Positions 10,114 to 14,231 of a DNA stretch of 51,290 nt are shown here, one piece after another. Source of the stretch: Thermoproteota archaeon (lineage in GTDB: Archaea > Korarchaeota > Korarchaeia > Korarchaeales > Korarchaeaceae); NCBI GenBank assembly GCA_015522685.1, contig WALU01000009.1, positions 1-51,290 of the forward strand, given 5' to 3'. Within the stretch, counting starts at the first letter, position 1. Each line of letters opens with the position of its first letter. A model generated the notes under the pieces. It saw nothing but the letters and a program-made list of their open reading frames with translations. It had not been told where the DNA came from and made no database searches. Both the position numbers and the translations under genes were made by a program.

Positions 10114-11535
10114 ATGAAAGTGTGGAGAAAGGGATTTATCATTCTCTTAATAGCTTTATTATTCAATACCCTCCCTGTAATGTCCCAAAATCAATGGGAC
10201 TTGGGAATAGATACCGTTAAGCTGTTTCCCATAAATGGTGAGGTTCAGCAAGGTGAACCATTATACCTCTCAGTTTATATCAGGAATCATGAGCGCAAGC
10301 TATTCTCCGGTATAGTAAAGGTCAACGTGTATGTGGATGGCTCACTGAAGGTCGTGGAATTCTGGGATATAGGTAATTTATCGAAGGGCTCGATACCTAT
10401 ACCAGCTGGAGGTTATACTACTATTACAACTGAGATGAAGACATCCAACCTTACAGTAGGCATTCATGACCTCCGTGTTTCAATAGAGGTAAGGGATTAT
10501 GAGGACCCCAGACCAGAGGATAACTCTTTCAGCCTGAAGTTCTCAGTAATACCCTTTGTCAATGCATTTATGGAAGCTAAGAAGGAGATGATCCAAGGAA
10601 GGGAGTATTATATCAAGGTTCATGTCCCTAATCCTTCAGATGAGCCTCTGAATCTTAAGGTGAGGCTCTTCGTTAATGAAACGGAAGTCGACTCCAAGGA
10701 TATATATGTGCTTCCTAGGTCAATATCCTTAGCGGAATTCCCATATACTCCAAGGAGAACTGGAACCGAGGAGATAAAAGCTACTATAACAAAAGAAGGA
10801 CAGCCTTACAGTCAAGCATCGATATCTATTAAGATAAGGCCATCCTGCGATATGAAGATAGAGGAGATATTCATCTCGAGTAGTGTTTTTAAGGGAGGTC
10901 CTCTCAGAGGAAGGATAAGGATATATAATAATGGATTCTCCTCCTCAGCAGTAAATCTCACTATTCAGGTTGACAGTAAAACTGTTAATTCGCAGGTATT
11001 AGGGATAATACCCCCAAAGAAAGATAAAGTTATAGAGTTGGTAGTACCTACAATTAATATAGGCGTCGGGAATCATACTCTGACCGCATTAGTTTATCCG
11101 ACGGATGCCACGGACTTGGATGAATCGAATAATATTTACTCTCTCTCCTTCATTGTAAAGCCTCTTCCAGTTTCCCTCTCAATTGGAGGAGAGAATGGGA
11201 TAATTAGGACTAATGTAACGAACATGGGCGAGGTGCTTGGTAACTTCGACGTGATACTGCTAGAGAAAGGGAAGAAGGAGATAGATCGCAGTTCCCTAAC
11301 TTTGGAGCCTAAGACAAGCCAAGTAGTTATATTTAAGGGGATTGAACCAGGGAACTATTCTGTAATCGTTCTAAGTTATGGATTTCAAGTGGCTTCGGCT
11401 AATATTTTTATAGAGCACTCTCTACAGAGGAATGCTACATCTCCATACTGGACGCTTGTCTTAGGGATCTTGGTATCAGTTATCTTATATCTAGCATTCA
11501 CAAAGTGGCATAGAAAGAAGTGGCCATCTTCATGA
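10114..11535 (+). CDS. Secreted CARDB-repeat protein with C-terminal membrane anchor
   Basis: A 473-residue surface protein. An N-terminal signal peptide (hydrophobic about 7-22, ending LPVMSQ) precedes repeated beta-sandwich domains of the CARDB/NEW3 kind. Repeated signs are LYLSVYIRNH, LKVRLFVNETEVDS, GRIRIYNNG, VNLTIQVDS and a DLDESNNIYSLSF turn. Residues about 446-463 form a C-terminal membrane helix followed by a basic tail. CARDB domains are adhesion or scaffolding modules in archaeal cell-surface proteins. It lies 68 bases before the cluster of small membrane proteins on the same strand and may belong with it. A TATA-like TATTTAAG about 30 bases upstream suggests a short leader. Confidence 0.85.
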   Translation: MKVWRKGFIILLIALLFNTLPVMSQNQWDLGIDTVKLFPINGEVQQGEPLYLSVYIRNHERKLFSGIVKVNVYVDGSLKVVEFWDIGNLSKGSIPIPAGGYTTITTEMKTSNLTVGIHDLRVSIEVRDYEDPRPEDNSFSLKFSVIPFVNAFMEAKKEMIQGREYYIKVHVPNPSDEPLNLKVRLFVNETEVDSKDIYVLPRSISLAEFPYTPRRTGTEEIKATITKEGQPYSQASISIKIRPSCDMKIEEIFISSSVFKGGPLRGRIRIYNNGFSSSAVNLTIQVDSKTVNSQVLGIIPPKKDKVIELVVPTINIGVGNHTLTALVYPTDATDLDESNNIYSLSFIVKPLPVSLSIGGENGIIRTNVTNMGEVLGNFDVILLEKGKKEIDRSSLTLEPKTSQVVIFKGIEPGNYSVIVLSYGFQVASANIFIEHSLQRNATSPYWTLVLGILVSVILYLAFTKWHRKKWPSS

Positions 11536-11603
11536 AATTTTTATCTCCCTTGTAAGTTTGATTCATTACTTCTATTAGAAATTGCTGAAGAAATTGATGT
11601 AGT

Positions 11604-11732
11604 ATGAGGGAATATGCCTATCTTGTAATGCTTCTAATAGCTCTTGTCCTCTTCTTAATGCTTGATCCGTTACTTTATCCAGCTGTAGCTGGCCTCGGTT
11701 ATTTCATTATATGGTGGAGGGTTAGAAAGTGA
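11604..11732 (+). CDS. 42-residue membrane protein opening the small-protein cluster
   Basis: An ATG at 11604 opens a 42-codon frame dominated by one or two hydrophobic segments (YLVMLLIALVLFLM, then YPAVAGLGYFIIWW) and ending in a basic tail. Its TGA overlaps the GTG of the next gene (GTGA at 11729-11732). The same coupling recurs along the cluster, which supports it as a real gene. No family is recognised. It could be a small pilus or secretion accessory membrane protein. Confidence 0.6.
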   Translation: MREYAYLVMLLIALVLFLMLDPLLYPAVAGLGYFIIWWRVRK

Positions 11733-12118
11733 AGGGAACCTTGGAAAGAGCACTTCTTATGGCGACTGGCCTCTCTATAATAGCTTATGCTGTAGCTGGA
11801 CCTATAGGTAATGCAGCCAATTTATTTGAGGAAAAAAGAGCAATAAATTGCGTAAACATAGCATTGAAATCGCTTGATTTGGCAATAACGAATTCCATTG
11901 GAGGAGGAACCGCTAGCGGGTATGTATACTTCCCATGTAATGTGATCTATGAAGCTGAAGGAACAGATGTAAGGGTGAGGTCTGGAAATTACTCGGCCTC
12001 AATCACATATCCCTTTGAAGTGGAAGGAGGTGGAAAAGCCATTGGTTATGGTAGGTTCGCTGCCATTTGGAGAGCCAAATATATATCTATAAGGTGGGAG
12101 AGTTGGAGGAAGGGTTAA
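11729..12118 (+). CDS. Pilin-like exported protein, unknown family
   Basis: A 129-residue protein starting with GTG. A short basic N-terminus (MKGTLER) is followed at once by a hydrophobic helix (ALLMATGLSIIAYAVAG), then a mostly beta-forming, glycine-rich region with two cysteines (INCVNIA and YFPCNV). That layout, an N-terminal helix carrying a small extracellular beta domain, resembles archaeal class III signal or pilin-like subunits, but I see no definite prepilin cleavage motif. It is coupled to the 42-residue gene by GTGA and overlaps the next gene. Function unknown. Confidence 0.65.
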   Translation: MKGTLERALLMATGLSIIAYAVAGPIGNAANLFEEKRAINCVNIALKSLDLAITNSIGGGTASGYVYFPCNVIYEAEGTDVRVRSGNYSASITYPFEVEGGGKAIGYGRFAAIWRAKYISIRWESWRKG

Positions 12119-12309
12119 GCTTCACTTTATCTGGAATTGGAGTTTTAGCCTTAATGGTCATTATATTCTTCTCTCTAAATCTTATTATTCCTCTAGTGAA
12201 GGCGAATAAATGCTGTGAGAGGAGAAAGATCGCTGAAAAGCTACAATCTCTATCTAATTACCTCCATATAAATGCAGCCAGCTATATAAAATGGGTGAGA
12301 AGATGCTGA
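12094..12309 (+). CDS. 71-residue membrane protein of the cluster
   Basis: One strong membrane helix (about residues 14-33, GVLALMVIIFFSLNLIIPLV) is followed by a basic, cysteine-bearing tail (NKCCERR) and a short amphipathic helix. Several starts are possible: TTG at 12067, GTG at 12094 or TTG at 12103. I chose the GTG, which gives a 25-base overlap with the preceding gene. The overlap into the next ATG (12303) suggests co-translation. No recognised family; like its neighbours it may be part of a membrane assembly. Confidence 0.55.
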   Translation: MGELEEGLSFTLSGIGVLALMVIIFFSLNLIIPLVKANKCCERRKIAEKLQSLSNYLHINAASYIKWVRRC

Positions 12310-12386
12310 CGGAATTGATGGAGGGAATCATCACGATGGTTCTTCTGGTTCTAATGCTAGCTGCCTTAGTAGGTGCCTTGAGTTGA
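12303..12386 (+). CDS. 27-residue membrane peptide of the cluster
   Basis: The frame runs from ATG at 12303 to TGA at 12384-12386. A short acidic start (MLTELMEG) is followed by a single hydrophobic helix (MVLLVLMLAALVGALS). It overlaps the previous stop by 7 bases and the next TTG start by 4 bases (TTGA at 12383). Its size is marginal. The two tight junctions and the hydrophobic composition argue that it is translated. Confidence 0.45.
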   Translation: MLTELMEGIITMVLLVLMLAALVGALS

Positions 12387-12664
12387 AGTGGATTATCGCT
12401 TCTATATCAGCCTTAATCTTAATATCAAGCTTCCTTGCCTTACCTTCTCGCATATATCCTGAGTGGCAAGTTTTTAGTAAGGCTTATGCATGCTCTAAAT
12501 CGGTTAGAATACTGAATGAGCTTGGCTATAGAGTCTTGCTGGGAGAGAGTGGGGATGGAGAGCTTACGGTAAGATGTATTTTTAATAATAAGAAGATCTA
12601 TTACTGCCTGTTCATTCCAGGAGCACAACCTTCTAGGTATCTAGCTGTGGTGGGTAGGCCTTGA
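12383..12664 (+). CDS. Small exported cysteine-bearing protein
   Basis: A 93-residue protein starting with TTG. It has a hydrophobic N-terminal segment (about residues 3-20), then a small domain with three cysteines (YACSKSV, VRCIF, YYCLF) that could form a disulfide outside the cell. The gene is joined to both neighbours by TTGA overlaps (12383-12386 and 12661-12664). No family recognised. The single N-terminal helix plus small domain fits a minor pilin-like subunit or a secreted factor. Confidence 0.55.
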   Translation: MKWIIASISALILISSFLALPSRIYPEWQVFSKAYACSKSVRILNELGYRVLLGESGDGELTVRCIFNNKKIYYCLFIPGAQPSRYLAVVGRP

Positions 12665-13479
12665 AGGAGATATATCTGCTAATAATAGCTCTGATGATGT
12701 CCTCTGTCATATTAAGCGTCCCTGAGAGGGATAGTGATTGGGTCTTATACAGAGGCGAATTAAGGATGTGGGAAATGCATGCAGAGGCTGATTCCTTGAA
12801 AGCAAGATCTATCATATTCGCCAGGTATTCTCTAGATTCCTGGTTATACAATGCGAATGGTAGCTCGTGCTATGCCGACCCTCCACCTCCGAATGGTTCG
12901 GCATTTCTAACGCTTCTAAGCAAGGATTGGGCAAGAAAGGAATTTTCATATAGAGGATCAATCTCATACAACATTTTTAGGTCGAAGGAAGGACAGAAGT
13001 CAGATCCTTTATTTGGTGGGCAATGCAGGGAAGGAGGTATAGGACTAGGGATTATGGGAAAGATGAGCATAGTAGATAACATGCTCTATATGAAAGCTGA
13101 TAGAAATTTCAAGGATCAAGCATGCCAGCCGACAGCATATTTCTCCTTGAAGGGATCTTTAGATTACTTAAAGCTTGAAACCTCTAGAATAGTGAGAAGA
13201 TCTTTCCTCATCAATAAAAACTTATCAGATGCCTTGAATGATATTAAATTGAACTTGAAGCATCTAGTTATTAAAATGAGAGCTAGACTCCTTCCTGAGG
13301 GCATAGATCTCAAGCTTTACTATTATACGAAAGTGGTTCTGAGGAGAAATGGAAAAGAAATCTCATTCGTATTCAATGTCATACTTAGAGATAATTTAGC
13401 TGAATATATACATCTTGGAAGGATCATGAGAAAATTTTACTGTATCAGGAACTGGGAAGTCAAGGTGAGAACTTCATGA
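12661..13479 (+). CDS. Large exported protein of the cluster
   Basis: A 272-residue protein starting with TTG and coupled by TTGA to the preceding gene. It has an N-terminal hydrophobic helix (about residues 4-20) followed by a long extracellular region. A helical stretch (LRMWEMHAEADSLKARSI) continues the N-terminal helix, as in pilin-like proteins. A loop with proline and cysteines follows (SSCYADPPPPNG, GGQCREGG), and the C-terminal half is rich in basic beta strands. No known family. It is the largest member of the coupled set and could be a tip or major surface component. Confidence 0.6.
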   Translation: MKEIYLLIIALMMSSVILSVPERDSDWVLYRGELRMWEMHAEADSLKARSIIFARYSLDSWLYNANGSSCYADPPPPNGSAFLTLLSKDWARKEFSYRGSISYNIFRSKEGQKSDPLFGGQCREGGIGLGIMGKMSIVDNMLYMKADRNFKDQACQPTAYFSLKGSLDYLKLETSRIVRRSFLINKNLSDALNDIKLNLKHLVIKMRARLLPEGIDLKLYYYTKVVLRRNGKEISFVFNVILRDNLAEYIHLGRIMRKFYCIRNWEVKVRTS

Positions 13480-13539
13480 AAGTTTCTCCTCATCACTATA
13501 ATTGTCTAAGCCGTAATCTAAACAGGCCTCAGTCCCTTG

Positions 13540-13836
13540 ATGAGATCAACCATCTACATTGCATCTTTAATAATTGCTTTGTTAATATCTCCTCTCATGG
13601 TTAGCGCCCAAGATCCATTTTCCGGCTTTCAGAATGCCATTCAAGATCTAACCCAGGATATCATAAATATCCTAAACACCTTGAAGGAGTCAGCCATTTC
13701 TATCGGGAGAGTAATGGCCGGCACCTTAATAGCTCTGGGCGTTATCCTATGGGCAAGCGATATATTCTCTTACAAGGGAAAGAGGCTTATACTTGCAGGT
13801 ATAATACTACTGATACTTATGGAACTGATCCCATGA
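13540..13836 (+). CDS. Small two-helix pilin-like protein (VirB2/TedC/CedA1-like candidate)
   Basis: About 98 residues from the ATG at 13540 (a TTG lies one codon before). It has a signal peptide ending MVSAQ (about residue 23), a short helical region (FQNAIQDLTQDIINIL), then two membrane helices (about 55-71 and 80-96) joined by a short basic loop (FSYKGKR). Signal peptide plus two helices with a charged hairpin is the architecture of conjugative VirB2 pilins and of the archaeal DNA-exchange pilins TedC and CedA1. That is inference from architecture; no sequence signature proves it. CedA/TedA and a HerA-type ATPase are not in the window. Confidence 0.6.
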   Translation: MRSTIYIASLIIALLISPLMVSAQDPFSGFQNAIQDLTQDIINILNTLKESAISIGRVMAGTLIALGVILWASDIFSYKGKRLILAGIILLILMELIP

Positions 13837-13846
13837 GTGTTAATAG

Positions 13847-14023
13847 ATGTCCATGAAGAGAATAGGTAGGTTCCATTCGGCCTTTGTTAAGATAGTAGTT
13901 TTATCGATCTCATTATTCCTAGTAACTTTACCTTCCATTCTCTTGCTTGAGATGAGAATACATCTTTATTCAGTAGTAGATTGTTATATCATGAGCTGGG
14001 AGCCTGAATGTCTCCTACTCTAG
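13847..14023 (+). CDS. Small exported protein at the end of the cluster, possibly frameshifted
   Basis: A 58-codon frame starts at ATG 13847, 10 bases after the pilin-like gene. It has a basic N-terminus (MSMKRIGRF), a hydrophobic helix (VKIVVLSISLFLVTLPSILL) and an extracellular tail with two cysteines. The frame ends at TAG 14021-14023. A second frame continues without a break from 13995 to TAA 14175-14177. Its residues (SYSRSIILSVSREIEAL, then GFDLSDLQILPFSK) look like a natural continuation, so this may be one protein split by a frameshift between 13995 and 14020. Confidence 0.45.
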   Translation: MSMKRIGRFHSAFVKIVVLSISLFLVTLPSILLLEMRIHLYSVVDCYIMSWEPECLLL

Positions 14024-14033
14024 ATCAATTATA

Positions 14034-14177
14034 TTGAGCGTTTCCAGAGAAATTGAGGCCCTTGAGTCGAGAACTCTCATAGGATTTGACCTAAGTGATT
14101 TACAGATATTACCTTTCTCTAAGGTGAAAAAGGTACTTTCAAGCCATAGCGGACCTTTTTCGAGATCCCTCCTCTAA
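14034..14177 (+). other. Possible 3' part of the preceding gene in another frame
   Basis: TTG at 14034 begins a 47-residue frame ending at TAA 14175-14177. It has no signal or membrane segment and no ribosome site. It reads best as the out-of-frame continuation of the 13847 gene, or as a short unassigned peptide. Direct repeats of CATTCTATTC follow at about 14183-14200, before the speE start. Confidence 0.3.
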
Positions 14178-14231
14178 GCTCATTCTATTCCATTCTATTC
14201 TATTTTTATTGTATCAAAGCGAGGGATACAT

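Follow-up and report, generated by a model that had tools for sequence, protein, structure and literature searches.

A conserved six-gene cassette of Korarchaeota that includes a leaderless pilin homologue and probably encodes minor subunits of a Tad/Epd-type filament

The window analyzed here (the whole 51,290-nucleotide stretch) is contig C9 of a 1.48 Mb Korarchaeota genome in 63 contigs, designated G000. The relatives used for comparison included G009, a single contig of 1,590,757 bases, and Candidatus Methanodesulfokora washburnensis; many of these genomes are incomplete. The locus contains the following features:

10114-11535, plus strand: A, exported CARDB-repeat protein with a C-terminal transmembrane (TM) segment (Pfam CARDB, 5.8e-12)
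11604-11732, plus strand: B, 42 aa, two hydrophobic stretches; first gene of the cassette
11729-12118, plus strand: C, 129 aa, apparent leaderless type IV pilin homologue; GTG start overlapping the stop of B
12103-12309, plus strand: D, 68 aa, single TM; TTG start overlapping the end of C
12303-12386, plus strand: d2, 27 aa, hydrophobic, MLTELMEGIITMVLLVLMLAALVGALS; between D and E
12383-12664, plus strand: E, 93 aa, N-terminal anchor; TTG start overlapping d2
12661-13479, plus strand: F, 272 aa, N-terminal anchor; TTG start overlapping E; signature of the cassette
13540-13836, plus strand: G, signal peptide and two TM, VirB2/TedC-like topology
13942-14127, plus strand: leftover part of a larger gene for an exported protein, 66% identical at the DNA level to the intact copy in L027

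The plus-strand frames A (the CARDB protein) to G that underlie the first-pass annotation were present in the sequence, as were the three overlaps it gave (GTGA at 11729-11732, TTGA at 12383-12386 and at 12661-12664), which recur across species and genera. The start of D was moved to the TTG at 12103, in agreement with the ATG, GTG or TTG starts of D in relatives and sister genomes, and the 27-aa gene d2, which overlaps both of its neighbours and joins D to E, had been overlooked. The core is composed of six overlapping genes (B, C, D, d2, E and F) at 11604-13479.

Comparison showed that the frames of the cassette and their overlaps are genuine and conserved, with purifying selection acting on them. 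Orthologues of B measured 41-46 aa at 11 loci of the genus; E was kept at 15 loci, and d2 ranged from 27 to 39 aa across all 15, with exactly 27 aa in seven of them. Of 15 related loci from several genera, 14 retain the four-base overlap between E and F and 11 the d2/E overlap; that between B and C is retained in nine of 11. This degree of conservation exceeds chance. Further, dN/dS was approximately 0.33 or lower for every cassette gene, including B (0.14-0.33) and the 27-aa d2 (0.15-0.31), with the ratio for E being unusable in the pair of the window and L027, where pS is saturated. D, d2, E and F begin at their TM segment or within a few residues of it, and the overlaps fix these starts. 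Conservation of gene order, which had been proposed as a check on the cluster, extends over the phylum.

A and G flank the cassette, lie outside the coupled set and are neighbours even when the cassette is elsewhere. A had been counted as part of the coupled cluster; it is indeed present upstream, but in the K. cryptofilum clade A and G are adjacent without B-F. In G004 and G009-G012, A lies directly before G in an intact neighbourhood (AlaX, A, G, nitrilase, an exported protein of ~540 aa and SpeE), which makes A a positional neighbour. G is present in 25 of the 29 Korarchaeota genomes and is probably an accessory part of the filament system, since it adjoins a Flp-like pilin in five genomes from two classes (G019, G022, G023, G026 and G027). 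An entirely different reading would be that G and A form a DNA-transfer pilus of the VirB2/TedC type (Ced/Ted-like), with the cassette as an unrelated neighbour. It draws on the layout that G shares with TedC (signal peptide plus two helices; the predicted SPase I site of TedC is AVA↓QA, PMC9905601) and on the pairing of A and G even without B-F. We consider it improbable, as the G profile retrieved no CedA1/TedC chain from the PDB and nothing relevant up to an E-value of 10, no CedA/TedA-like, VirB4-like or VirB6-like gene lay beside G in the loci inspected, and G stands next to a Flp-like pilin in the five genomes named above. In L035-L038 and L040, a short two-TM protein lacking a signal peptide is found 3' of F, where the true G is elsewhere or was not found, and distant G-like two-TM proteins occur near a glmS-like gene in another archaeal family (f42; L115-L117).

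The run of at least seven frames described previously holds for A-G, but not for the frames at 13847-14023 and 14034-14177. These match, with frame breaks, the beginning of the ~540-aa protein, whose gene sister genomes have retained in full (66% DNA identity to the L027 copy over 197 columns); the segment 13847-14177 is a remnant and contains no functional genes. In the lineage of the window, a deletion between G and the spermidine synthase-like gene (SpeE), at 13837-14231, removed the nitrilase, most of the ~540-aa gene, an aldo/keto reductase and a 361-aa gene, all of which are kept in sister genomes.

Pfam and NCBIfam returned no useful match for B-G. The pilin homology of C had escaped notice in the first-pass annotation. 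Of the profile and structure searches that had been suggested, a profile-profile comparison matched C to pilin, whereas Foldseek returned nothing from the PDB at E ≤ 0.001 for F or, as described below, for C. The AF2 model of F (pLDDT 90.8, pTM 0.80) consists of a large α/β domain after a short N-terminal anchor. No homology of E or F to C or to the pilin was detected by profile comparison.

C aligned with the pilin from its Met1, which corresponds to residue +1 of the mature protein (probability 89.8, E 1.8e-6; N-terminal stretch MKGTLERALLMATGL). When 3905 ORFs were scored with a mature-pilin HMM, C was the best non-pilin ORF, first after the true pilins (E 1.7e-4). In its AF2 model (pLDDT 85), a helix of 55 residues (2-56) is followed by five strands, which is the element order of a pilin (a long N-terminal helix, then β strands). 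Foldseek retrieved nothing from the PDB for C at E ≤ 0.001, and a pilin fold is proposed for it from the order of these elements. An in-frame TAG lies two codons upstream of the start of C, so that no leader is possible. No class III leader was found on any of the cassette proteins, with C beginning at mature +1 and D-F at or near the TM. C therefore looks like a homologue of the filament's pilin whose start codon sits at the mature N-terminus, i.e., a leaderless pilin. That C might instead be an ordinary prepilin cleaved after a three-residue leader (MKG↓TLE) is suggested by the K-G ahead of the hydrophobic stretch, which in the window copy resembles a class III site. This is very unlikely, as the orthologues carry MKE, MRA, MILS, MNET or MHQV at this position and cleavage would place Glu at +3, out of the pilin register.

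The pilin profile detected one copy in nearly every genome searched. These proteins are short and Flp-like (67-96 aa), without room for a globular domain. The copy of the window's genome, on contig C54, carries a class III leader (MALRKRRG↓ITGTLEQALL), in line with the short leader of the window's clade (M..RRG↓(I/V)TGTLEQALL); leaders are longer in other genera, e.g., DDESG↓. In G009-G012, by contrast, the initiator Met is aligned to the first mature residue, and in-frame stops are found a few codons upstream in several of these pilins. Judged from these starts, the main pilin itself is leaderless in the K. cryptofilum subclade, where the leader has been lost, and a single genus has both leadered and leaderless forms of one pilin. 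A link between leader loss and loss of a linked peptidase throughout the genus was considered and dropped, as the window's clade combines a leadered pilin with an unlinked peptidase.

Other candidates of this kind were observed. A 66-aa hydrophobic ORF opposite the ATPase in G026 (L157, 6795-6995; mature-pilin HMM E 3.6e-4) is possibly another leaderless pilin. In the window's own genome, a second T2SSE ATPase locus (contig C40; L051, 2428-7618) encodes four pilin-like proteins, two of them with large C-terminal parts, which start at the hydrophobic stretch or a few residues before it (MENVIGIL, MNEAIALL and MQLTIETI, among others); starts of this leaderless kind may be widespread in the lineage.

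That a dedicated peptidase removes the leader is regarded as a defining feature of type IV filaments, and FlaFind-type searches detect pilins by this leader. Leaderless subunits would be overlooked by leader-based searches such as FlaFind, and they raise the question of what prevents premature assembly. No report of leaderless pilins was found in the open-access literature, which does not prove that there is none. With leadered and leaderless forms of one pilin in one genus, the change would be open to direct study. We tentatively put forward, as a possibility that we hold with some doubt, that the Korarchaeota filament is built partly, and in the K. cryptofilum subclade wholly, of pilins made in mature form; if this is true, the superfamily could do without leader cleavage, which is regarded as one of its hallmarks, and the step from leadered to leaderless would be visible within a genus.

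The first-pass annotation had suggested a pilus or secretion system whose ATPase and platform would be encoded elsewhere, and both points were borne out: in related lineages these genes are contiguous with C-F, and in the window's genome both lie on contig C21. There, an Ig-like surface protein, a 227-aa protein, the ATPase and the platform adjoin an SMC gene, an order also present next to the SMC gene in sister genomes and in the Methanodesulfokora genus. The C21 ATPase matched T2SSE (E 5.2e-13), with VirB11/TadA as the nearest curated families at scores far under their cut-offs. T2SSF matched the platform of the K. cryptofilum clade just below the cut-off (7.7e-5), and gave no match to the C21 platform, which is 36% identical to that orthologue. 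Peptidase_A24 was above the cut-off in 22 of 26 genomes, including the window's own (contig C3). ATPase, platform, pilin and peptidase thus lie on contigs other than that of the cassette, with the system spread over four contigs and no physical link of the cassette to C21 or C54. The HerA/DUF87 genes of this genome were rejected as partners, having ordinary-looking neighbourhoods; a HerA-like ATPase of G002 (L034, 11128-13650) has an apparent intein after its P-loop.

The physical link is found in relatives. C-F were contiguous with the ATPase and platform in G009-G012, G021, G024, G026 and G028, and within 3 kb of them in G020, so that in other genera and in another class a type II/IV secretion ATPase and a TadC-like platform are encoded at the same locus as C-D-d2-E-F. 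In G009-G012, an Ig-like surface protein, a 211-aa protein, the ATPase, the platform and, on the opposite strand, a pilin stand immediately before the cassette. In G021, the prepilin peptidase, two platform genes, the ATPase and the pilin all lie on the strand opposite the cassette, while in G024, G026 and G028 the ATPase, platform(s) and C-F all run in the same direction, in G024 together with the peptidase. G021, G026 and G028 have two platform genes each; the K. cryptofilum clade and the genome of the window have a single one. Next to the locus, G016/G020 encode a protein carrying a MinD-like Walker motif. In the ATPase tree, the genus is held together (99/98), with both gene arrangements inside it.

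Within the genus, 14 of 16 genomes have an orthologue of F. A wider profile detected F in 26 of the 29 genomes of Korarchaeota, and the three without a match are 63-78% complete. Outside Korarchaeota, there were two marginal matches among ~365 other archaea. F, and with it the C-D-d2-E-F set, appears to be restricted to this phylum, and the cassette could serve as a phylum-wide marker of a surface-filament system in these hot-spring archaea, almost all of which are uncultured.

Taken together, we consider it probable that B-F encode the minor subunits of a type IV filament of the Tad/Epd type that is predicted to occur throughout Korarchaeota and for which the following assembly scheme can be drawn. 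The filament subunit would be the short Flp-like pilin of contig C54, its leader presumably removed by the A24 prepilin peptidase of contig C3; the TadA/VirB11-like ATPase and TadC-like platform of contig C21, where the Ig-like surface protein is also encoded, would assemble it. C, as a pilin paralogue that starts at the mature N-terminus, and the anchored D-F would have no need of the prepilin peptidase; C-F may be inserted N-in/C-out and together make up a membrane complex at the platform, where it would initiate, cap or anchor the filament. The four-base stop/start overlaps suggest that the cassette proteins are made together by coupled translation.

A variant of this scheme places C-F outside the filament, as a membrane-anchored collar or stator around it. 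For the archaellum, this role is played by ArlF/ArlG, duplicated archaellins that form a stator derived from pilins (PMC8667602), a precedent that would suit a pilin paralogue without a leader, the large α/β domain of F behind its short anchor, and the CARDB and Ig-like surface proteins close by. We regard the stator role as the less likely of the two, in that neither Pfam nor Foldseek showed similarity to ArlF/ArlG, and lean towards minor subunits of the filament.

The cassette proteins resemble ArlF/ArlG (PMC8667602) in that C is pilin-derived and the set is membrane-anchored and placed beside a type IV filament motor, with a role that may be comparable, although their similarity to ArlF/ArlG is undetectable. 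G has the topology of the CedA1/TedC/VirB2 pilins (signal peptide plus two TM helices; PMC9905601), but no profile match to them, and no VirB4/VirB6-like neighbours were seen. The closest likeness is to archaeal Epd-like and bacterial Tad pili (Denise 2019, PMC6668835; Makarova 2016, PMC4858521), with which the korarchaeal system shares a VirB11/TadA-type ATPase, a putative TadC-like platform (with two platform genes in several korarchaeal lineages), a short Flp-like pilin, a prepilin peptidase and several small N-terminally anchored proteins. As in those systems, where the ATPase/TadC module is separable from the pilin sets (PMC4858521), this module can be apart from the pilin set. The korarchaeal system differs from them in that its genes are spread over four contigs in the window's genome, C-D-d2-E-F are unmatched in Pfam and NCBIfam, and C, like the main pilin of the K. 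cryptofilum subclade, lacks a class III leader. The predicted filament is of a known type, and what is new is the C-D-d2-E-F set and its putatively leaderless pilin C.
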